Source: a virus. From it: a stretch of 20,690 bases of DNA. This document shows, piece by piece, positions 1 to 14,797 of the stretch (its first letter is position 1; every line of letters begins with the position of its first letter). The stretch is from positions 1 through 20,690 of IMG/VR virus record IMGVR_UViG_3300027861_000236, one strand, 5' to 3'. A program made the position numbers and the translations under genes. A model generated the notes under the pieces. That model was not told the origin of the DNA and did not search any database. It saw only the letters and a list, made by a program, of their open reading frames with translations.

Positions 1-285
1 TTTAGACACCATCCTCTTTTGATGCTTTGTGACTCTGTTTTTTTGATTTATAATTAGAACCAAATCAAAATCCTCATTTCTTGGTTCTATATTGAAACAC
101 AGAGAAGTAATCCATATGTTGACTTTAGAACCTACGTCTTTCTGTAGATGTGGTGATAATCGATAATTATTAAACCTAGCCACGTACTTATAACTGTCAA
201 TGAGCGATCCCTGGTTAGACCCCAACAGAGAACCTGAATTAGATATCAGTGCTGTGTCTTTTAGAATTTCTGGTAGCTCATTCAT
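1..285 (-). CDS. Glycosyltransferase family 29 (sialyltransferase-like), N-terminal part, cut by window edge
   Basis: An open frame of 95 codons runs from ATG at 285 to the left edge with no stop, so only the N-terminal part is present. Residues about 13-55 carry the sialylmotif L pattern of GT29 enzymes: a (G/S)NSGSLLGS stretch, then G-x-x-I-D, V-A-R-F-N-N, and DVGSK. In this family the motif binds the CMP-sialic acid donor; bacterial and phage members exist whose real donor and acceptor are unknown. Sialylmotif S and the catalytic His would lie beyond the edge, so activity cannot be judged. The gene follows the terminator after the capsid gene, and I see no clear ribosome binding site before its ATG; an in-frame TAG at 298-300 rules out a longer start. 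A role in decorating virion or host glycans is inference only. Confidence 0.75.
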   Translation of the reverse strand, partial: MNELPEILKDTALISNSGSLLGSNQGSLIDSYKYVARFNNYRLSPHLQKDVGSKVNIWITSLCFNIEPRNEDFDLVLIINQKNRVTKHQKRMVSK

Positions 286-323: not shown

Positions 324-356
324 AAAAAAGCCCAGTTAGAAAACTAACTGGGCTTT
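324..356 (-). terminator. Rho-independent terminator after the capsid gene
   Basis: A perfect 10-bp inverted repeat (330-339 with 344-353), extended to 13 bp by A:T pairs, encloses an AAAA loop. On the minus strand it is followed by a run of six T (329-324). It lies 47 bases past the capsid stop codon and would end the head-gene transcript before the GT29 gene. On the plus strand the stem is followed only by TTT, so the minus direction is favoured. Confidence 0.88.
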
Positions 357-402: not shown

Positions 403-1977
403 TTATAGGTTAGAAACCGAGATGACACCGTAGTAAAGCCCACCGTCCTCGATCAGTTTCTTACCGTATCGGGTCATTACACCCTTATTTGGCGTGAAGC
501 TGTTCGGGTCCATGACTGTTGGAGTGCTGAGAAGCGGAATGTATGGTGCGTAGAAGTATCCCGCATCCAAAACGCTGCTTCCTTTAAATCCAAGAAGGAT
601 TTTGCAGTTGGGGAATAGTGGGTCTTTGTAGAGCTTCATCTTGCCCTGAATAGTACCCATGTTCATGATTCCGATATCAACGCCTTCAGTGGTGAATGCA
701 TCGCTTGCTCGGAAATCGTTCAACTGCTCAAACTTGCTGCAAAGGTCAGCACTAGTTACCATCCAGTTAGCAGGACCACGTAAAGTAGTTCTATGGATGA
801 TGTTAGCAACTTCAAGAGCCTTGTACATCAAAGCGATGTTTCGGTCAGTGAAGTTAACACTAGCGCCAGCAGCAGTAGCAAAGTTATGATCAGCACGGAT
901 GGCTGCAGCAACAATCAAATCGTTGATGATTTCACGATCGATTTCAGCAACCATCTCGTCGGCCATCAGGTCGGTGAGAGTGCTTTCTGCATCGATGTTG
1001 TGAACCGACTTGAGATCTTGAGCTGCTTCCAAACTCCAGCTAGTCTTAAGTTTACGAGTCATAGCAGCGACCGAATCGCTGTCAATGCTCAATGTTACTT
1101 CAGGCTGGAATGGGTTAGCTTCAAGATCGTACTCGTAATTGATCCTCGAAACTGCACCTGCTGGGAATGCACCAGCAGATAGTGTAACAGTAACGGCACC
1201 AGTCGAGTGATTGAAAACTGTTGTACCAGTATCAACTGCAATTGTCGATGTAAAGTTGGTGCAATCACCAATCAGAACAACATCAGCTGCGCCGTCAGCA
1301 TCGTAGCTAACTCGCAAGCATGGTTCTGCTTCTTCGCAGTTTGGATCAGCATCAGCTTCCGACTCATAAACTTCAACAACAACTGTACCAGCAAGAACTG
1401 GACGATGTGCAAGAGTAGCAGTGACGGTAGTACCGCCGCCACCAACAGTCGCATCCTCACCACGAACTTCTTGCGAAGAGTAGTAAGGATCAAGAGCCCA
1501 ACCGTTTTGCTTAGCAAAACTCTGAGCAGTGTTTTGGCGCATGATCTGAGTACCGGCAACAGTTTGACCTTTGGTCAAGGCGTAACGGTATCTGATGTAG
1601 AAAATCAAGCTGGCAGGCTGGCTCATTGGCTGAACACCAACAAGATTATCTGCGATCAACTTTGGGTACGATTTACGAATCAAAGGAAGCGCAAAGCGAG
1701 TGAAGTCAGCAATGTTAGCAGTGGTGGTCTGGTCTTCTAACAGTACCGATCGATTCTCTGGATTCCAGTGGTTGTACTGATTTTCCAGAATCGAAGCCAT
1801 CAAGCCAAACTTTTGCTTGCCAACTTCGCGGCATTTGTTAAGAACAGGTGACCATTTCTTGACCAACTGGTTTTTCTTCGACTCATGAAGAACAGCTGCT
1901 GAATGCAGGTCTGTCGCTTCGCTAATTGGACGCTGGGCACCTTCAGCGAGGTGACGTCCTCTAGTAGGTAATGACAT
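403..1977 (-). CDS. 23: Major capsid protein, T4 gp23-like
   Basis: Main shell protein of the phage head (524 residues; T4 gp23 is 521). The core reads like the gp23 family: a VGVQPM motif at 113-118 after the R-K-x-Y-P-x-L-I-A stretch, and a T-D-L-M-A-D-E-M-V-A-E-I-D-R-E-I helix at about 335-350. A Gly-rich hinge (179-182) opens a beta-rich insertion of about 100 residues (183-284), corresponding in place to the insertion domain of T4-type shells. The first 33 residues contain three matches to a prohead-protease site: LAE|G (10-13), ISE|A (18-21) and LHE|S (30-33), so the mature protein probably lacks a short N-terminal peptide. ATG at 1977 has an AGAGGAGA binding site at 1985-1992. It is the last gene of the head operon, after scaffold and protease, and ends just before a strong terminator. 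Confidence 0.95.
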   Translation of the reverse strand: MSLPTRGRHLAEGAQRPISEATDLHSAAVLHESKKNQLVKKWSPVLNKCREVGKQKFGLMASILENQYNHWNPENRSVLLEDQTTTANIADFTRFALPLIRKSYPKLIADNLVGVQPMSQPASLIFYIRYRYALTKGQTVAGTQIMRQNTAQSFAKQNGWALDPYYSSQEVRGEDATVGGGGTTVTATLAHRPVLAGTVVVEVYESEADADPNCEEAEPCLRVSYDADGAADVVLIGDCTNFTSTIAVDTGTTVFNHSTGAVTVTLSAGAFPAGAVSRINYEYDLEANPFQPEVTLSIDSDSVAAMTRKLKTSWSLEAAQDLKSVHNIDAESTLTDLMADEMVAEIDREIINDLIVAAAIRADHNFATAAGASVNFTDRNIALMYKALEVANIIHRTTLRGPANWMVTSADLCSKFEQLNDFRASDAFTTEGVDIGIMNMGTIQGKMKLYKDPLFPNCKILLGFKGSSVLDAGYFYAPYIPLLSTPTVMDPNSFTPNKGVMTRYGKKLIEDGGLYYGVISVSNL

Positions 1978-2815: not shown

Positions 2816-3559
2816 TTACTTTAGATCAAAAAAATCGTTGATTTCAGATACCAACATGTCACTATAAACTTCAGGAGCAAACTTGTTCTTGCTTTTGGCC
2901 ATAGGCCGCAATCGTTTGTTCAATCCTTCCTGAATCTGAAGAATAGCGCCATTTACAGATGGCTCTGCAACCGCATCCCAGGTAACAAAAGCGTAACCGG
3001 GCATTACTCGGTATAATTCCTTACCTGCGCTTTCAACAACATCCATGTCGCCAACACCACGAGAAGAAATACCGACTCTAACCTTATGCTCAAATAAACC
3101 TCTGAGGCAAGCGCCACATGGTAAACTGTGCAAAATTTCAGCTTCACCATAAACCTTACGACCATCCATCCAGACTTTAGTCATTAAATGACTAACGCGA
3201 TCTAGATGAATTTTCGCATCAGCAGGGTGATCAAATTCTCCCATAACTGCTCTTGATGAAACATCATCTTGGATGCTTTCTACAGCGGGGCGCAATACAT
3301 CACTCGTTGAATAGATTCTACCATTTGCGTTTTCTCTATCTCCCATCTGAATTAGACCGGAAACACGCATAGCAGGTAATTCACGACCTTCTTTGCCTTC
3401 TACTACTATATCCTGTTTGTCGATTACGTCAAAAGAGAATGAGTCTCTAATTAACTGATAACCGGCAGGAATTACACCAGTCTCAGCAATAACCCTGCGA
3501 TCAAACCCAGGATTATTTTTAGACACCGACGTTTTGGCTTCTCTTCTTGTAGGTAACAT
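2816..3559 (-). CDS. 21: Prohead core protease, T4 gp21-like
   Basis: Serine protease that matures the prohead by cutting scaffold and capsid proteins. In the 247-residue product I see an ENANGRIY motif (76-83), typical of the family, then a candidate catalytic His111 in FDHPAD, Ser165/166 in VGISSRG, and Asp195 in TWDAVAEPS, the expected order for this herpes-assemblin-like fold. Near the C-terminus IQE|G (209-212) matches the T4 cleavage rule and may be an autoprocessing site that releases a 36-residue tail, as gp21 also processes itself. The open frame reaches TTG 3571, but ATG 3559 has a perfect GGAGG 5 bases upstream, so I place the start there. That gives a 12-base gap to the upstream 984-residue gene. 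Confidence 0.92.
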   Translation of the reverse strand: MLPTRREAKTSVSKNNPGFDRRVIAETGVIPAGYQLIRDSFSFDVIDKQDIVVEGKEGRELPAMRVSGLIQMGDRENANGRIYSTSDVLRPAVESIQDDVSSRAVMGEFDHPADAKIHLDRVSHLMTKVWMDGRKVYGEAEILHSLPCGACLRGLFEHKVRVGISSRGVGDMDVVESAGKELYRVMPGYAFVTWDAVAEPSVNGAILQIQEGLNKRLRPMAKSKNKFAPEVYSDMLVSEINDFFDLK

Positions 3560-3564
3560 TATTG

Positions 3565-3569
3565 CCTCC
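3565..3569 (-). promoter_or_regulatory. Ribosome binding site deciding the protease start
   Basis: GGAGG on the minus strand, 5 bases before ATG 3559. It overlaps the TTG codon at 3571-3569 that would otherwise be the longest start, so the TTG start is unlikely. Confidence 0.85.
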
Positions 3570-3571
3570 AA

Positions 3572-6526
3572 TTATTTGTGGTTCATTGGCTTAGCCGTTG
3601 GAGGCTTGGTTCCTGCTTCGTCACCTTGCTTCACATCTGGCCCAACATCTTCCAGCTTATCATCTGAAAAATCAGTTGGTTTGTGCTTGGGCATATCACG
3701 AGGATTTTCCTTCACATGCTTAGTGTATTTAGCGTTGGTTGGTTCCGAAATATCTTTATCTTCCATCATTTCGTCGTCTTCCTCTTCTTCTGACTCATCA
3801 TCAAAGCCATCATCAGAGTCATCATCTAAGGGTTCGAAGTCTGGCATTTCATTGTCATCATCTTCTACTTCCTCATCAGCTTCATCAGTATCAATAGAAT
3901 CAACCGCAGCCATACCCTCTGTTTCATCATCCATTTCAGGGTCGGCATCAAGTTCAATCATATCCATATCATCAGGATCAGCAGAATCTAAATCAACGTC
4001 CTTTTCGACAACTTCAACATCACCTTCGACTTCAACACTAAAACCACCTTCGGGATTAGATTTAATCGTGGCGACAGCTTGATCAATAGCTTGGTCAAGC
4101 TCATCGTCTTCATTTTCTGAAATAGGTCTTAACTGTTCAATCGAACCATGTAACCAATCAGCAAACACACTTGGTTGGCTAGTTGGAGTTGACTCTAACA
4201 TGCCAACGCTTGCAAAAGCACTATCAAACAATTTTTCTGGAATAGGAATTTCTACCGACCCATCTTCACTTAGAATCACAGGTTTAAGGTCAGAATCTCC
4301 ACCATGATCAAAGATGAAATTAACTCCATTCATCGATCCTGACACTCCATCCTCTTGAGCACTGCCCCATTGGATAGATTCGTTTTTGATTTCCATTGGA
4401 GCTATGCTATTTTTAGCATATCCCCTCTTTCTAATGCGTGGACCTTTTCTTTGATCCTCAGCAACGTCATCATCTTTTTCCCAAGGCTTGCCGCTACCCT
4501 TATCACCATCATCGCCGTCGTCGTGGTCAGAGTCTTCACTGTCGTCATCGTCTTCTTTAGCGCCAAATGGAGCAGCAGCACCAGGAAATGGTTTTTCCTC
4601 TGCAAACAATTCAATGCATTCTCCGATTGCAGAATCTAGTTTGCCATCGGGAACTCTAAATCCTAATGCAGTTATAGCAGCTTCTGCCATGCCTACTAGG
4701 TTATTATCTAACGCGCTGCCCACAAGCTTATGCTCTTTAGCAAGACGATCCATAATTCTAACGACATTCTGCTTATCCGATAAATTGGTGAAAACAGGTG
4801 CACCATAATCAGCCAATAAGCTAGATTCTTTTATTTGATCATTGTAAGCATAAGGGTCAGCGCCCTCTTCAAGATCACAATCATCATCAGGCATATCGTC
4901 ATCTTCTTCATCCTTCATTTCATAATGTAAAGGACGAGACTCACTAAGTGCTTCACGAGCGGCTCTGCTTTCCATTCCTGGGAGTGGAGCAGCAGGCTGC
5001 TGTGGAGCCGGAGCAGGAGCCGGAGCAGGAGCAGGAGCAGGAGCCGGAGCTTCTTGTTGTCCTATTACTGCATCTAATTCATCCTCATCGGGTAGCTGCA
5101 GTTCATCCAACTCTTCTTCTTCCTCTCCACCTGCAGAGCTTTTACCACCAATTTGAATCAATGGTGAATTAATATTGATAACAGGCTGGCCTGAATCTGC
5201 GTCGCCACCCATATCCATTAAAGGATCATCGCCAGGCATTTGATCAAAATCACCTAACGTTTCATTGGCTGCTAATTCTTCTTGAATCGTAGCAATCAAG
5301 TCCTCAGCCTCGAAAATTGCAGCATCATCAAAATCTTTCGCTTGCAACCTGTTAATCAAATTATCCAATTTGCTAGCTAAGTCAAACGACTCTTTGATTT
5401 TCGGAGTTGACTCCTTCAAAGATTCTAAAGTAATTGCTAAAGCTGATGCGGCAACTTCTTTGTTGCTGAAAGCTTCAAATATTAAATTCAAAAACTTATC
5501 ATATGCTGGTTCAAAATCTGTCACATTTTCCAAAATAGCGACATTTTCTGCTAATACAGGATGTTCAGCTTTTTTGGCAATATTTCTCCACTCATCGATG
5601 ATCTTATTGCGACTAATCTTCAAATTAGTACGATGCATCAAAGTGGCGGTATCCTTCACAATTGAATCGTTAAGGACTGCGTTTGCTGCTAACGCATTCT
5701 CAACCAACGTTTCCATTTGTTGAGTTGTTAGCAAGGTAAACTCTTCGTTTTCATTTAAGAAGACTGAAGCCAGCTTCACTGCCTCTTTCACATTGCCTTC
5801 AGCAACTAAGGAAGCTGTGTGCTTCACTCTTTGTTGAAAACCTTCAGACCAATATGCATTTGAAGCTGCATCACGCATTTTGCGAGCAACGAGCTTTCTT
5901 GCAGCCCATTTAGTTACGGGCAATTTGACAGGATTACCACCATTAAAGTGTCCTGCAACTACATGACCGTTTTCAACAATGACATGATCTTTCATGCCTT
6001 CTACAATTGTGCTGATTAATCGCGCTCTGCAATCTTCATCCAACGACTCACCAGTTGTAACATTAATATGGCGAATAACGTTGTCTCTACCTTTTACAAC
6101 ACCTGAAAATGGTACTGCACGACCGGAGAACCGTTGTGCCTGCATTCTTTTGTATGCAGACCCCATTCCCTTCTGGTCATTTTCTTCTATAGCATTAACC
6201 AACTTATAGCATGACTCGGAGAATAAATCTTGTTTCTCCTCCTCTACTATCTGAATTGGTTTAATATTATCAATTGAAACTTTGCCACCCTTTTCTTTGG
6301 TGTGTTCAGCAACAAAATATAAATTGTTGTCAACATCCTCAAAAAACAAGGTGTTAGAGTGCAAAGAAACTAATCTGTAATTTTTGCTAGCATATTTTCC
6401 CATGCTGGCAATTCTATTCTCGAAAAACGCAATTCTGGCCTGAGCGGAATCGTTCAGGGCTCCCAGAAACTTGCGACTATCCATTTTTACAGATTGGGCA
6501 GTCGAGGTGTTCTGATTCTGAGCCAT
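3572..6526 (-). CDS. Large acidic protein between portal and protease genes, probable head/prohead component (function unknown)
   Basis: I do not recognise a named family for this 984-residue protein. Residues 1 to about 370 look like an ordered, mostly helical region containing GRAVPFSGVVKGRD (135-148). From about 395 the chain becomes very acidic and low in complexity: an (AP)n repeat at 493-508, long Asp/Glu runs at 656-670 and 855-935, and a short ordered stretch at about 575-645. Candidate prohead-protease sites are LKE|S (370-373), IKE|S (377-380), LSE|S (527-530), LEE|G (552-555) and IKE|S (565-568), bracketing the acidic middle. ATG 6526 has AGGAG 8 bases upstream. Its position matches that of the small T4 core proteins 67 and 68 between genes 20 and 21, but it is far larger. 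A prohead core or internal head protein is my inference. Confidence 0.8.
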   Translation of the reverse strand: MAQNQNTSTAQSVKMDSRKFLGALNDSAQARIAFFENRIASMGKYASKNYRLVSLHSNTLFFEDVDNNLYFVAEHTKEKGGKVSIDNIKPIQIVEEEKQDLFSESCYKLVNAIEENDQKGMGSAYKRMQAQRFSGRAVPFSGVVKGRDNVIRHINVTTGESLDEDCRARLISTIVEGMKDHVIVENGHVVAGHFNGGNPVKLPVTKWAARKLVARKMRDAASNAYWSEGFQQRVKHTASLVAEGNVKEAVKLASVFLNENEEFTLLTTQQMETLVENALAANAVLNDSIVKDTATLMHRTNLKISRNKIIDEWRNIAKKAEHPVLAENVAILENVTDFEPAYDKFLNLIFEAFSNKEVAASALAITLESLKESTPKIKESFDLASKLDNLINRLQAKDFDDAAIFEAEDLIATIQEELAANETLGDFDQMPGDDPLMDMGGDADSGQPVININSPLIQIGGKSSAGGEEEEELDELQLPDEDELDAVIGQQEAPAPAPAPAPAPAPAPQQPAAPLPGMESRAAREALSESRPLHYEMKDEEDDDMPDDDCDLEEGADPYAYNDQIKESSLLADYGAPVFTNLSDKQNVVRIMDRLAKEHKLVGSALDNNLVGMAEAAITALGFRVPDGKLDSAIGECIELFAEEKPFPGAAAPFGAKEDDDDSEDSDHDDGDDGDKGSGKPWEKDDDVAEDQRKGPRIRKRGYAKNSIAPMEIKNESIQWGSAQEDGVSGSMNGVNFIFDHGGDSDLKPVILSEDGSVEIPIPEKLFDSAFASVGMLESTPTSQPSVFADWLHGSIEQLRPISENEDDELDQAIDQAVATIKSNPEGGFSVEVEGDVEVVEKDVDLDSADPDDMDMIELDADPEMDDETEGMAAVDSIDTDEADEEVEDDDNEMPDFEPLDDDSDDGFDDESEEEEDDEMMEDKDISEPTNAKYTKHVKENPRDMPKHKPTDFSDDKLEDVGPDVKQGDEAGTKPPTAKPMNHK
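5004..5050 (-). repeat. Hexanucleotide tandem repeat coding an Ala-Pro run
   Basis: The unit ggagc(a/c) on the plus strand repeats almost eight times without interruption. On the coding strand it gives the alternating Ala-Pro segment at residues 493-508 of the 984-residue protein, probably a stiff linker. Unit number may vary between isolates by slippage. Confidence 0.9.
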
Positions 6527-6643: not shown

Positions 6644-8653
6644 CTACTTTGGAATATCATCTTCCGTAATTGCGCCGCTGTCTGCATTGCAACGTTGGTC
6701 ATTATTTTTGTCAGCCATCAATAGGTTATATACCTCATTAATGGCTGACTCACGTTCTTCCTCGTTTACTGACCACCCAATAATAATAGATTCACTGTCA
6801 GGATTAGTCGATTCATTTATAGTATCTTGAGAAGATTTGATGCTATCATAATCGCCGCTTAATGTATCGCCGTTGCCTTTATTAAGCCCATCTAATTCGT
6901 TGCTCTCAAGCATAAATTCATAATTACTGTTATATTCTGCTGAATCAGAAGAAAATGTTTTACCAACTTTATCCGCCCAGGATTCCAATATCTTACGCTT
7001 TTCTTCAATCTTTTCACTCTTACGCATCTCTGCGATTAATCTCTTTTCTGCCTCTAAATCAAACCCTTCTGCCTCAATTCCTCCTGCCTCAATTCCTCCT
7101 GCCTCAATTCCTCCATCTTCTCCGCCACCAGCTTGGTCTAGCATACCCTCTAACTCGCCATCAACTTCCGGTGATTCAATATCTCCGCCTTCTCCTTCTT
7201 CTCCTAACCCTTGGTCTAGATCATCCAAACCGCCAACAGGTCCTAAACCACCTCCAGCGCCGCCGCCGCCTGGTCCTCCTGATTCTTCGATTGACCCCAT
7301 CTCATCCATCTCTTCAATTTCATCTGGAGACAAATCAGTAAAATGTGTAACAATCCATTCTTTAGGGAACCAACCTAAATCTTTAAGATCAGCCATAACA
7401 CTAGCTCTAGTCTGCCATGTCTCAATCCTATAAAGCTCTTCCATAGCGGAAGTAGCTGTTAGAGCTATCTCAAATCCTTTTAAATCTTCCACTGAATATC
7501 CGCGCAGGGCCAAATGAACTATAGCTACTTTAGTTAGCCCCGTAGCCACTTCTCGTTGAACCCATTGGACAGCTTTGGCAAACTCAGAATGAGATTGCGA
7601 TAAGGACTTATCACTAGAATCTCCACTACCCTCACCTATCCCCACCCTAGAGAATGGTATTTTAGTGGGAGCTATCATCTTTTTCTTAAAGTATTCTATG
7701 TCCGCTATTTGATCAAGATTTTCTGCGCCAGGCATAGTTTCAATATCTGGGCCAGCACCATCAGGCCGTCTAGGCAAGAAAAAATCATCTTCTTGAATTA
7801 ATGGAGAATATCTCTCATCGAAAGAACCAGTTGTTGGATTATAAAATCTTTGGCGCTTAAAATTGCGGGCAATCATCTGCATATACTCAGGGACTTCCTT
7901 TGGTGGGATAAGTCCTACTGGTATTAAAAACTTACGCTTCTCTGGTGCTCTAGTAATCCTATATATTAAAGCTGCATCTTCCATCAGCCTTAATTGTTTA
8001 AACGCTTTTCTTCCACCATCTATTATAGATCTACCATATGGGTGGTAGATATTTTCAAAACTAGTTAACCTAGCATGCATTACCTGCCAAGGATGGAAAA
8101 ACTGAGGCTCCGCACTAAATTCATCGCTATGATAAAATCCTACTAACTCGCCATGCCTTGTCTCTACTCTAGTAAAGTCATAAACACTCATAAAGCGCAA
8201 TGAAGAAACACCATCTCTGTTTTTATTTAGAACAATTTCGTATGGCATGTCACCATACTTGCACAGGTATCTAATAGTTGGCCTGCAATAGCTATCCCAC
8301 AATAAAGTATTAAACAACAACTCTTCTAATTCTTTTTTAAGTCTTTTATTGCGTGCTCTTATTATAAGAGTGTGCTTGCGTTCTGGGTCAACTAAGCTAG
8401 CTTCATCTGCGTACAGATCTAACGCTAAAGTTATCTCACCCGTTTGATCCATCTGCTCATAATCTTTATATCTTTCTAATCTATTAATTTGCAGATTAGT
8501 CTGATCAATGATTGTAGCAGAATTATTAGATGGTAAATTCCCAGATAATCTATCTAAATCCGATTGATCCTGAAATATTCTTTCAGCTTGAAATATATTA
8601 TGTGAACGAGTGAGCGCTCTAATTCTGTCGAAGGCAAGTAGTGTGCTTGGCAT
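6644..8653 (-). CDS. 20: Portal vertex protein, T4 gp20-like, with long C-terminal extension
   Basis: Dodecameric ring through which DNA enters the head. Family features are visible: YADEAS near 81-86, a Y-R-I-T-R-A-P-E-K-R-K-F segment at 231-242 followed by P-x-E-Y-M, K-K-K-M-I-A-P-T-K-I-P-F-S-R at 323-336, and a Q-R-E-V segment near 366. T4 gp20 has 524 residues; this protein has 669, with core similarity ending near 450. The extra 215 residues are Gly/Asp/Glu-rich, include three GGIEA repeats (514-528), then a charged helix and a Ser/Asn-rich tail. Candidate protease sites IEE|S (455-458), ILE|S (555-558) and INE|S (612-615) all fall in the extension, so it may be removed during maturation. 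ATG 8653 has AGAGG 8 bases upstream. Confidence 0.93.
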   Translation of the reverse strand: MPSTLLAFDRIRALTRSHNIFQAERIFQDQSDLDRLSGNLPSNNSATIIDQTNLQINRLERYKDYEQMDQTGEITLALDLYADEASLVDPERKHTLIIRARNKRLKKELEELLFNTLLWDSYCRPTIRYLCKYGDMPYEIVLNKNRDGVSSLRFMSVYDFTRVETRHGELVGFYHSDEFSAEPQFFHPWQVMHARLTSFENIYHPYGRSIIDGGRKAFKQLRLMEDAALIYRITRAPEKRKFLIPVGLIPPKEVPEYMQMIARNFKRQRFYNPTTGSFDERYSPLIQEDDFFLPRRPDGAGPDIETMPGAENLDQIADIEYFKKKMIAPTKIPFSRVGIGEGSGDSSDKSLSQSHSEFAKAVQWVQREVATGLTKVAIVHLALRGYSVEDLKGFEIALTATSAMEELYRIETWQTRASVMADLKDLGWFPKEWIVTHFTDLSPDEIEEMDEMGSIEESGGPGGGGAGGGLGPVGGLDDLDQGLGEEGEGGDIESPEVDGELEGMLDQAGGGEDGGIEAGGIEAGGIEAEGFDLEAEKRLIAEMRKSEKIEEKRKILESWADKVGKTFSSDSAEYNSNYEFMLESNELDGLNKGNGDTLSGDYDSIKSSQDTINESTNPDSESIIIGWSVNEEERESAINEVYNLLMADKNNDQRCNADSGAITEDDIPK
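7071..7115 (-). repeat. Three 15-base tandem repeats in the portal gene tail
   Basis: The 15-base unit gcctcaattcctcct (plus strand) occurs at 7071-7085, 7086-7100 and 7101-7115, the last copy differing only at its final base. On the coding strand it encodes the repeated pentapeptide Gly-Gly-Ile-Glu-Ala. Near identity, including at synonymous positions, points to recent duplication. Confidence 0.92.
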
Positions 8654-8739
8654 ATTTTTAACCTCTACGGTTTATTTACCGAAACGATCCGCCCTCCTGT
8701 TTTAGATGGAAGACCTATATTAAAATTTGCATAATACAA

Positions 8740-9060
8740 TTAATGGTCTTCGCTAATGACCTGGCCACTGCTGGCTGACTTTTGTTGTAATGCAAAATCA
8801 GACGATGAAAGGTATTCAGTGCCGCCGGTATCGTTAGCCTTAAAAGCTACAGGTGTGTCAGGTCTATACTTAAGCTTAGATATTTTAAACACTGTTCTAC
8901 AAACAAGATAAGTTATAGCTACAACCGATAGCGACACTACCAATACTATAATTTCAGCTCTATTATCAGAATTTGATGTTAATACTAATATAGTATCGAC
9001 AACTCCAACTATAGTTGTTAGCCATAGCTCAGTTGTTTTAATGCCAGGCCCATTACCCAT
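8740..9060 (-). CDS. Small two-helix membrane protein, holin-like
   Basis: A 106-residue protein with two hydrophobic segments, about residues 10-29 and 37-56, joined by a short polar turn (N-S-D-N-R-A), and a hydrophilic C-terminal half. The start G-I-K-T-T-E-L-W-L-T and the end of helix 2 (I-T-Y-L-V-C-R-T-V-F-K) resemble small phage holin-like proteins with a K-T-x-E-F-W-L-T opening; this is recalled similarity, not a search. A holin would form lesions in the inner membrane to time lysis. No endolysin gene is in the window. ATG 9060 overlaps the terminase stop by 8 bases and has AGGA 6-7 bases upstream, so translation is probably coupled. Other membrane roles remain possible. Confidence 0.7.
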   Translation of the reverse strand: MGNGPGIKTTELWLTTIVGVVDTILVLTSNSDNRAEIIVLVVSLSVVAITYLVCRTVFKISKLKYRPDTPVAFKANDTGGTEYLSSSDFALQQKSASSGQVISEDH

Positions 9061-11017
9061 TGTTTTTCCTGTAATAGCTATTAGGTGGCGTTACAATTGG
9101 TCCACCTTGACCCATCGGTATTCCACCTATTTGCATTGCAAATTCTTCTAAGTGCCTTTGACGGGACAATTCTGGAGATTCATCCGCCGACATTGACATC
9201 GGCATCATTAATCCAACTCCGCCCTGATCAATATATTTACTTGCAGAATCTTTCTTTACTTCCGATGAAGATATCATAGGCCCAGCGAAACTTAAACTCT
9301 GCCCGCTCCCTGTCGGGATTAAATTGGCAGCATCTGGTATGTGTGCGTCAGACGTACCTACAAAAGCTAAAGCACAAGCGATAACCAAGTCATCAAAGTT
9401 ACCAGCACCATCTTCTGCCTCTGTCTTATTTGTGTCTCGTCCAGTCCTATCCCTCTTTCTAACATATGTCTGAAATTGTTTGAGCAATCTAGCACTGTAT
9501 ACCTTGTATCCCTCACCATTTTCCGATAAGTAATCGATCATATATTTATTTAAAGTCGGTTTACTCGCCATACTAGTCGCATACCCATAATGCCCAACTT
9601 TCAACGATCTTTGTCCAGAACTATTGCTTCTCGGTTTGTCATTTACCTCTTGTTTACGCCATATCCTTGGATACATAACGTCATATCTGAGGCTATCGAT
9701 TAACGTATCGCCCCCATTATTTCTCTCAACCACCGCTAGAGCAGCGTTATACCATCTACCAATCCTATCAATATATTTCACCAAATCGCGAGGTAAACAC
9801 CTAACCATCATTTCAGCGACTTGCTCCATAGTGTCTACATCAAACACTTCAATTGCGCTGTAATCTCGACCCTTGCCCGTTGCTATATCAACACCCATCA
9901 CATAAGAATGAGCGTTAGAGCCACCATCTATTATTTCATTACCTCGTTTTTTCATAGGTGTTGCCACCACAGGGTTTTGCCACACCCACAATCCTTCATC
10001 AGGATCATCAAATTCGAAGTTCATCTCCTCAACGATCCCGCTTACAGGGTGCACATATGTTTGTGCTCCACCGATTTTTTGTGCTGGATCTTTAATGTTG
10101 GTTTGAATGTTGGCTAATGTCTCTTTGGTCAATACGGTATGGCCAGATCCAATAAATGAGGCCAAGACTTCTTGTTCAAATTTCCACCCGTCGCCTTGGT
10201 CCTGCAAAGCATTAAATTGCTCTTGTAACCAAGGTGACCAATATGAACCGAATCGTGATATATCTTGCTTTTCAGAACATTTTTTAATGCCATCTCTAGG
10301 AGCGATTCTTTTAAATTGGTTAGATAGCGGGTCATTATACTCTATAGCCCAATCCATATCCCACCAATTAATCATAATTGGATTAAAGCCATTGACACCT
10401 GCATCCGCATCAGTCCACGTTGACCAATACCAATTACCAATACCATTTGTGGTGGAAATGACTATGACATTACCACCATGCTGCAAAGTAGGCCAACCAG
10501 CAGCCCACATACCATCCATTCCTTGAATAAACGCCGCTTCGTCAATAATGTTTAAGGAAGATGCGTTAGACCGTAATACTTCTGGATGTGAAGTTAATGA
10601 TTGAATTCTCGATCCGTTGGGAAATATTATCTCGTGTTCATTCTGTTTTTTTGGTTTCCAAACTTCTTTCATCCAAGGAGGTAAATGCTCATAGAGGAAT
10701 ACAACATTGTCTCTTAAAAACCCCATTGCGTCTTCATTTCTCCTAGACACAATGAGAATTGTTTTATGAGAATGCATCATTGCAAACCATGTCGCAAAAG
10801 CACCAGATATCTTCGAAATACCAGCTTGGCGGCACTTCCTAAAAATATTTAACCTATGTTGCCTGAAATCTTTAATCGCATTTCTTTGATAACTAAATGG
10901 GCGAAATGGAAGAATACCAGCCGATGGGTGTTTTAATTTACCAAAATGTGTCAACCACCAAGTCACAGATTGCTGTGATCGTCTAATAGCTTCTCTCTGT
11001 TTAGTATCTAATCTCAT
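9053..11017 (-). CDS. 17: Terminase large subunit, T4 gp17-like
   Basis: ATP-driven packaging motor and nuclease, 654 residues (T4 gp17: 610). ATPase domain: nucleotide-binding loop KCRQAGISK (61-69), Walker B LNIIDEA (155-161) with Asp159/Glu160, and coupling motif VISTTNG (186-192). Nuclease domain (RNase H fold): Asp377 in GVDIATGKGRDYSA, Glu431 in VVERNNGG, and Asp542/543 in NFDDLVIA. The first loop is odd: the Lys of T4's SRQLGKT position is Ile67, and the sequence instead fits the K-x4-G-x-S-K form known from phage lambda gpA. The gene starts on ATG 11017, sharing one base with the TAA of the upstream small-subunit gene, which implies coupled synthesis of the two subunits. Confidence 0.95.
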   Translation of the reverse strand: MRLDTKQREAIRRSQQSVTWWLTHFGKLKHPSAGILPFRPFSYQRNAIKDFRQHRLNIFRKCRQAGISKISGAFATWFAMMHSHKTILIVSRRNEDAMGFLRDNVVFLYEHLPPWMKEVWKPKKQNEHEIIFPNGSRIQSLTSHPEVLRSNASSLNIIDEAAFIQGMDGMWAAGWPTLQHGGNVIVISTTNGIGNWYWSTWTDADAGVNGFNPIMINWWDMDWAIEYNDPLSNQFKRIAPRDGIKKCSEKQDISRFGSYWSPWLQEQFNALQDQGDGWKFEQEVLASFIGSGHTVLTKETLANIQTNIKDPAQKIGGAQTYVHPVSGIVEEMNFEFDDPDEGLWVWQNPVVATPMKKRGNEIIDGGSNAHSYVMGVDIATGKGRDYSAIEVFDVDTMEQVAEMMVRCLPRDLVKYIDRIGRWYNAALAVVERNNGGDTLIDSLRYDVMYPRIWRKQEVNDKPRSNSSGQRSLKVGHYGYATSMASKPTLNKYMIDYLSENGEGYKVYSARLLKQFQTYVRKRDRTGRDTNKTEAEDGAGNFDDLVIACALAFVGTSDAHIPDAANLIPTGSGQSLSFAGPMISSSEVKKDSASKYIDQGGVGLMMPMSMSADESPELSRQRHLEEFAMQIGGIPMGQGGPIVTPPNSYYRKNNG

Positions 11018-11649
11018 TAGTCTAATTCGCCGCCCATAGGTTCAGAACCGCTTAGTATATCATCTAACTCAGAACCGGACACAGAAAGATTATTATTCTG
11101 GATATTAACACCGGCCTTAGTTGCAGCTATCATCTTAGCTACACCTTCCATCACTTTTACAGCGTTACCATTTATGCTAGCTTTTACTTCTACTGCTTTA
11201 ACCAAACCATCAACATACATCCTAGCTGGTGGGCGATCCTTGTTATGGGCCTCATCGCACTGCAACCTAAGCATATTTATAACATCCTGAGCTTCCTGCC
11301 TATCGTTACGACAAGAAATCAAAACTTCATCTGCTACCTCGTCCATCTTTTCGAGGTACTTTAAAACATCAGTGGATTCAGCAATTTTTGAATCATCTAA
11401 TGCTGGTGTTTCGTCTAATCTCTTAAAGCTTTGTTTGACTGGCCTTAATGCACTGCTTGGCACTTCATCTAGTATATTAGATTCTACCTCAGATTCTACC
11501 TCAGATGGTTTATCTTGGTTGATAATTTCTTCATTAATACTGTGTTGTTCGTTAGTTGACTCATTTATAGGTAATATGTTATCTGTCTGGTTTGGATCAT
11601 CATCTTCCAATTGATCCAACAAATCTTTTAAATCATCGTCAATATCCAT
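11017..11649 (-). CDS. Probable terminase small subunit, T4 gp16-like
   Basis: A 210-residue acidic protein encoded directly before the large terminase. The first 95 residues are low-complexity and acidic, with a duplicated V-E-S-E pair coded by a 12-base tandem repeat (11479-11502). Residues 95-180 are predicted helical. The end resembles gp16: helices with a K-D-R-P-P-A-R-M turn (137-144), then V-N-I-Q-N (181-185) and G-S-E-L-D-D-I-L (192-199), compared with N-I-Q-N and G-S-x-x-E-L-x-D-E-I in T4. Small terminases form rings that bind DNA and regulate gp17. INE|S (28-31) and IAE|S (89-92) match the proposed protease motif. A GAGGGG site precedes ATG 11649, and only one base separates it from the upstream stop. 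Similarity is weak, so the call rests largely on position. Confidence 0.65.
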   Translation of the reverse strand: MDIDDDLKDLLDQLEDDDPNQTDNILPINESTNEQHSINEEIINQDKPSEVESEVESNILDEVPSSALRPVKQSFKRLDETPALDDSKIAESTDVLKYLEKMDEVADEVLISCRNDRQEAQDVINMLRLQCDEAHNKDRPPARMYVDGLVKAVEVKASINGNAVKVMEGVAKMIAATKAGVNIQNNNLSVSGSELDDILSGSEPMGGELD

Positions 11650-12273: not shown

Positions 12274-13269
12274 TTACTCTTCGTCAAAGTCAATACCTAT
12301 CCGACGCCTATCTTTAATTTCAGCTATATTCTTACTTATCGGCGAATCAGTAAATTCAAAGCTTCTAAGCTTGATAAGTTTCATAAAACCAGTAATAATA
12401 GATCTTGAAAGACCTGTTTTAGCTACTAACTTACCTATTGTACCATCATGCGGTCGATCATCATTAAACAATAACCATTCTATAGCTTCTATTATTTTAA
12501 GGTGATCATCATTATACTTGCATACATCTTGCGCCTCTCCTAGGAATCTAACCATTATATCACTAAGAGGTCTAGACTTACTACCAAGATGACTCATGTA
12601 AGACTGAGAGTTCTTTCTATCACGACCTTCCTTTTTAATATATGCTAAGATGACCGTTCTGGCGACCTGGGACCACATATTAAAAACTTTAGACATGCCC
12701 CTATATAGGATAGCCTCAGATCCTCCATATAAATCCTGCACTGGCTCTATAACGTGATCATTAGTTAGCTTACCACCACAATATGGACATACTCGCCCTT
12801 TATGCATCTTTAAGACTTCTTCCATAGTCTTAATGCCATATTCTCTTTCTTGTGGCTGGTATAATAAAGATTTAGAAGGATTATCAGGATTATAGCAAAG
12901 ACGGCAATGTGGTCTAGATCTATACTTATACAGAGTTTTTTCAATCTGTACCCAAGCAGTTTGGAGCAGATCCCCAAATGCTGAATCCTCTTGTCCTGGG
13001 TATATGGTATGTAGACCTTGCTTTCTGATTATCTGTCTAATTAGCTCAGTAGCATTAGACATTATTTGGTCGCGCAGTTCTATTTTAGTACAACCAGTCC
13101 AGATATATTGAGTGAGATGCCATTCAACTATCTCATTTATAAAATAGAGCCGCCGTTTAGGTGGTTCTTGTTGCTCCTGCTCTGGTTTTTGTACAGATTC
13201 AGGTGACTCACTTTCTTTTGAGCCATTCTTTTTTGACGTGGAATCTACTTTTGACAAATTGAGCACCAT
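12274..13269 (-). CDS. Probable late-transcription sigma factor, gp55-like, with zinc ribbon and C-terminal HTH
   Basis: A protein of 331 residues (positions below count from the in-frame TTG at 13272). After a disordered, charged N-terminus (1-40), residues 43-118 read like sigma region 2: a Y-F-I-N-E-I-V-E-W helix, L-R-D-Q-I-M, and S-A-F-G-D-L-L-Q-T-A-W. The second part of the domain, K-V-F-N-M-W-S-Q-V-A-R-T-V-I-L-A-Y-I-K-K-E (195-215), resembles the DNA-recognition helix of gp55-type factors. Between them lies C-R-L-C (123-126) and C-P-Y-C (162-165), a zinc-ribbon pattern. A helix-turn-helix-like segment follows at about 278-300. T4 gp55 has 185 residues and lacks these additions. It would direct host RNA polymerase to late promoters for the downstream head genes. 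ATG 13269 overlaps the helicase gene by 62 bases and has only a weak binding site. Confidence 0.65.
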   Translation of the reverse strand: MVLNLSKVDSTSKKNGSKESESPESVQKPEQEQQEPPKRRLYFINEIVEWHLTQYIWTGCTKIELRDQIMSNATELIRQIIRKQGLHTIYPGQEDSAFGDLLQTAWVQIEKTLYKYRSRPHCRLCYNPDNPSKSLLYQPQEREYGIKTMEEVLKMHKGRVCPYCGGKLTNDHVIEPVQDLYGGSEAILYRGMSKVFNMWSQVARTVILAYIKKEGRDRKNSQSYMSHLGSKSRPLSDIMVRFLGEAQDVCKYNDDHLKIIEAIEWLLFNDDRPHDGTIGKLVAKTGLSRSIITGFMKLIKLRSFEFTDSPISKNIAEIKDRRRIGIDFDEE

Positions 13270-14797
13270 CAACGCTTCCGCCAGGGAAAATTATAGTCGT
13301 TTTATACCCGGCAGCAATCATTGCCTTTAGACGAGATCGTGAATGTTCATAAAGGTATTTGTTACCTCTAAATAAAAAATCGAAAATTCTACTTCTACCT
13401 CTCTTATTGTGCCTTACTGCCCTGCCGACTTTTTGAATAAAATCAGATTGCAGTTTACCACCGGTAGCTAGTATTAAATTTTCGCAGCCTCCTTTTAAAT
13501 CGAGGCCCCGATTTATTATCTTTCCTCCTATAAGTACATCAAAATCTCTATTTTCAAACCCCCGCAAATTTTCATTCCTACGACGTTTATCGGTTTTGCC
13601 ATATATGAAATTGGCAGTTAAACCCTTCGCAGCAATGCTCTCTAAAAGACTGTGGCCCAATTTTTCTCGATCCACTAGCGTTAATGTGCCGTCTCCTTTA
13701 TATTTTTTACATAATCCAGCTATCGTTCTATGAAATTCACTATTGCTAACCAACCAATCATCATATGCGATATCATAAGCAGATCTGTCTTTAATGCTTC
13801 CTTCAAGACCAAATGCTAACATGTAATAGTCAACAGGTATTATTCTACCTATTCTTTGCAACTCTTGCCTGGTTTCTTTAACGATCACAGAACCCAAGTG
13901 TTCTTGCATAACCAAGCCTTCTACAGGTTTTGAATCATCAAACGGCGTTCCACTAAACCCGTACCTTCTACGTCCCTTAAACATGTTCTTAAATAGTTTT
14001 TTAAACGGGTCGGAAGTAGCTTTATCACATTCATCTACAAGTAGCATTTCAGCATCTTTAATATATTGCTGAAGCTGCTTACAATTTTTCCTACGTGTTT
14101 TATATCCTTTATAAGATACCTCCCATTTAGCCAGCTTTTTATTATAAGTGGTATCTGTGTCATTATCAGATCTTTTAGGGACAGCTGGAGGTTTAGATGG
14201 AATAGTTAATGATTGAATAGTGCCTACAACTATTTGCTGCCCATCTGGTTTTTCACCGGCATAAAAAAGACCTACTTCATCTATCACATCTCTAAGTTCG
14301 AGTCTTGACTTAAGCTGTTCAACCACAATTCGCTGGTCAGCTATTACCACCGTTGGGCAAGTTATAGCCTTGCAAATGCCAGCTATAAGCTCGCCTTTCC
14401 CGCCGCCCGTAGGTATATCAGCAATACCACATTCAATTCTGCAAGCGGCTTGTATACCCCTTACTTGATGAGGATCTAAAGTTATCCCAGGCATAAAATC
14501 TGGTTTTATATCATCTGGGTCTGTTATAGAGTGAGACCAAGCTTCTCTTTTATCAACTATTACTAAAGGAACATCAAATTTTTTACAGACACCTTTAAGC
14601 ATGCTAAGTAAAGGTCTTGCCATTCTTTTTCTATGGCGATTATATTTCCTATAGATGCCATCCCAGTTACCCATTTGGCTGGGGTCAATATACATTCCTG
14701 GCTTGGTCACACTAAATTGTGTCCACAGCACTTCTTCTTCTGCATCAGTTATATTATCGAAGTATATCCACTGATTGTCTGTTATTATAGCTCTCAT
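13208..14797 (-). CDS. uvsW: SF2 DNA helicase, T4 UvsW-like
   Basis: A 529-residue superfamily 2 helicase, probably acting in recombination, fork regression and the switch of replication mode as UvsW does in T4 (587 residues). Visible motifs: L-D-P-H-Q (107-111), Walker A PTGGGKGE (129-136), ADQR (153-156), V-G-T-I-Q-S-L (191-197), motif II DECD (255-258) in place of the more usual DECH/DEAH, SGTP (282-285), motif V GGKIINRGLDL (424-434) and motif VI QKVGRAVRH (455-463). A Lys- and Thr-rich stretch (198-245) sits between motifs Ib and II. I use ATG 14797; an in-frame ATG at 14812 is possible, and neither has a clear binding site. Its 3' end overlaps the sigma-like gene by 62 bases. Homology to UvsW specifically rather than another SF2 branch is probable, not proven. 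Confidence 0.85.
   Translation of the reverse strand: MRAIITDNQWIYFDNITDAEEEVLWTQFSVTKPGMYIDPSQMGNWDGIYRKYNRHRKRMARPLLSMLKGVCKKFDVPLVIVDKREAWSHSITDPDDIKPDFMPGITLDPHQVRGIQAACRIECGIADIPTGGGKGELIAGICKAITCPTVVIADQRIVVEQLKSRLELRDVIDEVGLFYAGEKPDGQQIVVGTIQSLTIPSKPPAVPKRSDNDTDTTYNKKLAKWEVSYKGYKTRRKNCKQLQQYIKDAEMLLVDECDKATSDPFKKLFKNMFKGRRRYGFSGTPFDDSKPVEGLVMQEHLGSVIVKETRQELQRIGRIIPVDYYMLAFGLEGSIKDRSAYDIAYDDWLVSNSEFHRTIAGLCKKYKGDGTLTLVDREKLGHSLLESIAAKGLTANFIYGKTDKRRRNENLRGFENRDFDVLIGGKIINRGLDLKGGCENLILATGGKLQSDFIQKVGRAVRHNKRGRSRIFDFLFRGNKYLYEHSRSRLKAMIAAGYKTTIIFPGGSVDGAQFVKSRFHVKKEWLKRK

Follow-up and report, generated by a model that had tools for sequence, protein, structure and literature searches.

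Why would a T4-like phage carry, next to its major capsid gene, the start of a gene of glycosyltransferase family 29 (GT29), the family that animals use for sialic acid capping of surface glycans and that is also known in plants, and what would its product transfer, and to which acceptor? The gene lies at the left edge of the window, i.e., the whole stretch of DNA analyzed, which corresponds to an entire IMG/VR record (20,690 bases), and whatever extends beyond that edge is outside the record. It occupies the minus-strand frame 285..1, starts with ATG at 285..283 and stays open for 95 codons up to the contig end, which cuts it and leaves its 5' part (translation from the ATG: MNELPEILKDTALISNSGSLLGSNQGSLIDSYKYVARFNNYRLSPHLQKDVGSKVNIWI...). 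The readable part is sialylmotif L (codons 16-54; 124..240, minus strand), recognizable in the translation and in the alignment to GT29 structures and complete phage homologs. The four elements of this motif named in the preliminary description are all present in the claimed order: NSGSLLGS (residues 16-23), G-S-L-ID (26-30), V-A-R-F-N-N (35-40) and DVGSK (50-54). Motifs S, III and VS fall left of the contig end, and a search for the remainder of the gene with one of its 27-base tags gave no exact match in any other viral contig.

The visible part of the window gene belongs to GT29. In a Pfam scan of the fragment, PF00777 (Glyco_transf_29) was the sole matching family, with a score of 37.2 bits (E 2.9e-9; curated cut-off, 23) and residues 9-62 aligned on profile positions 55-107, that is, 53 of 272 positions; no PF00777 match was found in 14 control genomes. 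Identity with the bacterial sialyltransferase families GT42, GT52 or GT80 was rejected, as the scan returned PF00777 alone. When the fragment was compared by phmmer with PDB sequences, only GT29 sialyltransferases were retrieved, weakly (best E 0.0033). A structure predicted for the fragment with the aid of 10 relatives (pLDDT 82) gave GT29 chains at all PDB ranks 1-30 with a probability of 0.99-1.00, while the following match dropped to 0.08; most of the GT29 matches showed 35-39% identity and an rmsd of about 1.3 A over 51-52 residues. The E-values are modest (best 3.3e-3), owing to the shortness of the fragment. The profile search and the fold comparison that had been proposed beforehand thus agree, the former exceeding the curated cut-off and the latter yielding GT29 as the only confident matches. 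Neither the fragment nor the L002/L116 homolog described below matched any of the 38,880 phage protein families in PHROG. We regard the window gene as a new representative of an already known family, incomplete in this record.

As for the genetic context, the minus strand of the window carries a T4-like phage head module composed of genes for the terminase large subunit (9053..11017; phrog_2, E 1.3e-29), the portal (6644..8653; phrog_213, E 3e-63), a 984-aa acidic protein, the head maturation protease (2816..3571; phrog_207, E 1.5e-39) and, as the last gene, the major capsid protein (403..1977; phrog_138 major head protein, E 5e-83; relatives 71-89% identical). PF00777, the fold match and phrog_138 together bear out the initial claim of a GT29-type gene start adjoining a T4-like major capsid gene. 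Two further minus-strand genes drew our attention. The 984-aa protein (3572-6526), encoded between the portal and protease genes, is highly acidic, with poly-Asp/Glu and Pro-Ala tracts, and has no PHROG match and no significant Pfam match. In turn, a 332-aa protein with a Cys4 zinc-ribbon-like insert (12274-13272), encoded between the helicase and terminase genes and likewise devoid of significant Pfam or PHROG matches, might, as a guess, be a divergent late sigma factor.

Between the capsid and GT29 genes lies an intrinsic terminator-like hairpin (327..356, minus strand) with a 13 bp stem, a 4-nt loop and a T tract. We fetched 80 capsid relatives (71-89% identical) and found a terminator-type hairpin with a T tract at the same post-capsid position in 31 of the 35 that were checked for it. 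In none of the 80 does GT29 immediately follow the capsid gene; in L023/L122, a GT29 gene is located about 2.4 kb downstream of the capsid gene, on the opposite strand. The post-capsid slot of the relatives is occupied by genes for XamI-like restriction, LAGLIDADG (homing-endonuclease), HTH-type, Mom-like and Stealth-type proteins and sulfotransferases, as well as, judging from translations, by aminotransferase-like and methyltransferase-like genes. Since the gene content after the capsid gene differs between phages and the hairpin recurs, the window GT29 gene is one occupant of a hypervariable cargo slot behind a terminator. Both the terminator and the nature of the slot weaken the earlier argument from a late head operon, and we do not read late expression from the position after the head genes. 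No sigma-70-like promoter for the GT29 gene was found on the minus strand within 1-2200. The heptamer ATGTATT, which occurs just after or near the post-capsid terminator in 14 of 34 sequences (L011-L087; top shuffled 7-mer at most 7), is perhaps a promoter heading the cargo slot; it is absent at the corresponding place in the window.

Scans of viral contigs revealed complete copies of GT29 in a 395 kb phage, its near copy and several others. The closest homolog, described below, and about ten more complete viral relatives mostly possess motifs S and III, and all of them align a motif-VS His. A family search of whole records contributed GT29 copies from three that share the capsid clade of the window, namely G015 (capsid 85% identical), G033 (77%) and G047 (74%). 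The closest complete homolog (L116:18525-19160), encoded by the 395 kb phage, scores 46% over motif L, and its model (pLDDT 73) retrieved GT29 chains at PDB ranks 1-29 (best E 3.7e-6), followed at rank 30 by a Pasteurella sialyltransferase. In the alignment of 19 complete phage and bacterial relatives, the motif-VS His column is invariant (19/19), mostly as H-x4-E, and motif S ([PL]-[ST]-x-G ... GF[DSN]) and motif III (HY) are kept in most of them. Animal sialyltransferases of CAZy GT29/PF00777 (ST3Gal-I, ST6Gal-I, ST8SiaIII, ST6GalNAc2) share the order and spacing of motif L and the fold with the window fragment, and motifs S, III and VS with most complete phage relatives, which in comparison are short (about 200-290 aa). 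A separate contig, L128 (IMGVR_UViG_3300008448_014967), possesses five tandem GT29 genes (7889-11376) with five PF00777 matches, and this array sits downstream of virion-structural-looking genes in a phage contig.

That GT29 is best known from animals, as previously remarked, is true; yet GT29 proteins have also been described from bacteria (PMC5811610), and the closest cellular relatives that we found belong to this domain, namely to Gastranaerophilales (L123), Azospirillum CAG:239 (L124) and Rhizobiales (L125), with 39-46% over motif L. They carry an N-terminal extension ahead of the GT29 domain, whereas the window protein begins directly at motif L. In the tree, the window gene is grouped with the bacterial relatives and the copy of the 395 kb phage, weakly (89/91), and the L023/L122 gene is placed in another group, again with weak support and on a long branch, which only suggests that the two may have been captured independently.

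Phage-borne GT29 genes are uncommon in GenBank, in line with what had been stated: among 50,697 GenBank phages searched by tblastn with GT29 queries, LR756508.1, a huge phage, was the one confident record, other matches having E 0.6-1. As this search was confident for that record only, the gene of Azotobacter phage TayeBlu annotated as alpha-2,3-/2,8-sialyltransferase (PMC12772287) probably represents another family or lies outside the searched collection. Among other viruses, a coccolithovirus gene is annotated as glycosyltransferase family 29 (PMC5371807); it is virus-borne like that of the window, but it is carried by a giant virus that infects a eukaryotic alga and not by a phage. In the literature searched (phage GT29, Kdo and sialic acid pathways) we found no description of huge-phage GT29 genes accompanied by their own CMP-ulosonate genes.

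GT29 enzymes require an activated sugar, and in six phage lineages (G001, G033, G004, G005, G051 and LR756508.1) GT29 is positioned near genes of CMP-ulosonate synthesis. In G001, NeuB, CTP_transf_3, KdsA, KdsB and a KdsD-like isomerase are encoded 12-15 kb from GT29, KdsA and KdsB exceeding the NCBIfam cut-offs. G033 has CTP_transf_3 and KdsA within 2 kb and a DapA/NanA superfamily aldolase within about 3.5 kb of GT29; CTP_transf_3 lies within 1.5 kb of it in G004 and G051, and in G005 NeuB is at 3.4 kb and CTP_transf_3 at about 8 kb. The 484 kb genome LR756508.1, unannotated in GenBank, contains five GT29 copies (L130, 310000-340000; also 308069-309847); NeuB, as judged from its translation, lies among four of these, and CTP_transf_3 is located beside the fifth. 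In the 395 kb phage, consecutive genes (L116:3472-7289) code for NeuB, a CMP-sugar synthetase, KdsA, KdsB and a KdsD-like isomerase; by sequence, these are predicted to make up an almost complete pathway to CMP-Kdo along with a nonulosonate synthase.

Random placement of GT29 gave p values of 0.01-0.2 per record and a combined value of 1.4e-4 for closeness to the CMP-ulosonate genes, in a small test devised after the pattern had been seen and in a setting where glycan genes cluster generally. In each of the five records with GT2 genes (5/5), GT29 lay nearer to the donor genes than any of these did, and the CMP-ulosonate and GT29 genes all group in glycan islands. CTP_transf_3 was not found in the GT29-bearing G003, G006, G047, G050 and G052, most of which are fragments, and the sole CMP-sugar-type neighbor in G015 is a sub-threshold PseF-like protein. 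CTP_transf_3 is also present in huge phages without GT29 (G017, G021, G038), and the link therefore rests on proximity, which is good but not decisive evidence. It favors a CMP-ulosonate donor without separating Kdo from sialic-acid-type sugars. No CMP-sugar genes were found within the 20.7 kb window record. Beside the GT29 gene of the capsid relative L122, a minus-strand gene (7776-8417) gives a weak PseF-like match below the cut-off (E 8.6e-4) and possibly encodes a divergent CMP-sugar synthetase.

A precedent for the Kdo donor comes from Arabidopsis RCKT1/MGP2, a member of the same family as the window gene, which was proposed from mutant chemistry to be a CMP-Kdo transferase (PMC11288761); by this analogy Kdo is a plausible GT29 donor, but RCKT1 works in the plant Golgi, on pectin RG-II. 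On balance, we lean toward a captured GT29 transferase that would move a CMP-activated ulosonic acid, either Kdo or a sialic-acid-like sugar, onto a host surface glycan, the donor and target being judged from the relatives.

A strict sialyltransferase, moving Neu5Ac (or legionaminic or pseudaminic acid) and not Kdo, appears unlikely. In plant GT29 proteins sialyltransferase activity is absent (PMC11288761). Over motif L, the fragment and human ST8SiaIII share 37% identity, and NeuB occurs together with GT29 in G001, G005, G007 and LR756508.1 (in the last one as read from translation); however, the NeuB and non-KdsB CTP_transf_3 matches do not reach the cut-offs that NCBIfam sets for Neu5Ac or Pse enzymes, and the neighbors include KdsA and KdsB in G001 and KdsA in G033.

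We give a low probability to a GT29-fold enzyme with some other donor, such as a galactosyltransferase, of which the Arabidopsis GT29 member GALT29A is an example. Family membership by itself leaves the donor unfixed, but the relatives cluster with CMP-ulosonate genes and the fragment keeps both motif-L Asn residues that we take, from ST3Gal-I, to be the CMP-contacting positions in GT29 structures. Agreeing with such diversity of donors, proposed activities differ among the plant members (PMC11288761).

Similarly improbable is the addition of an acidic sugar to capsid or fiber proteins. The preliminary description allowed for either virion decoration or a change of the host surface, and the GT29 gene is indeed the next one after the major capsid gene; yet the terminator separates the two, unrelated cargo fills the slot in the capsid relatives, and complete relatives, e.g., those of G001 and G033, reside within large glycan-biosynthesis clusters. 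Nothing points specifically to the virion, and the host surface is favored by the several relatives found in glycan clusters with CMP-ulosonate genes. A decayed or truncated gene, with an N-terminal remnant running past the contig edge, is very improbable, for although the contig terminates within the gene, its GC content (35%) is lower than that of the head genes, and mobile and homing elements occur in the slot of the relatives, no stop codon interrupts the frame, motif L is intact with its conserved positions retained, and the GC content is inside the range of the window (13% of its 285-base stretches are as low).

According to the favored reading of a captured ulosonic acid transferase, a T4-like phage belonging to a huge-phage clade would have acquired a cargo gene whose product is predicted to be a complete, active and soluble inverting GT29 glycosyltransferase. 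By analogy with the complete relatives, it would bind CMP-Kdo or a CMP-sialic-acid-like nonulosonate via motifs L and S, and the motif-VS His would serve as the base for sugar transfer. The acceptor would be a glycan destined for the exterior of the infected cell, i.e., LPS, O-antigen or capsule, and the changed, negatively charged surface could hinder rival phages or defenses. By analogy, capping of a host surface glycan during infection is the most likely role. Jumbo phages are known to carry surface-polysaccharide clusters, which are thought to block rivals (PMC7824862). These LPS and capsule clusters of jumbo phages and cyanophages likewise combine phage-borne sugar-making and glycosyltransferase genes, but, unlike for the GT29 clusters described here, the main text of that survey nowhere refers to sialyl, sialic, Kdo or CMP sugars.

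Our broader proposal is more tentative: huge phages may repeatedly capture GT29 along with modules that supply CMP-ulosonate (KdsD-KdsA-KdsB or NeuB-NeuA), in several independent events, so that the infected cell would show a phage-specified sialic-acid-like or Kdo cap. If true, this would constitute an undescribed class of phage surface remodeling that employs CMP-sugars instead of UDP/GDP-sugars. The recurrent pairing of GT29 with CMP-ulosonate genes is more interesting than the window gene alone, and the complete short homologs of L116, L118 and LR756508.1 are suited to expression and assay. The phage genes bear on the little-known prokaryotic side of the GT29 family, and their recurrence near matching CMP-sugar genes offers a concrete hypothesis for the recoding of the host surface by large phages.
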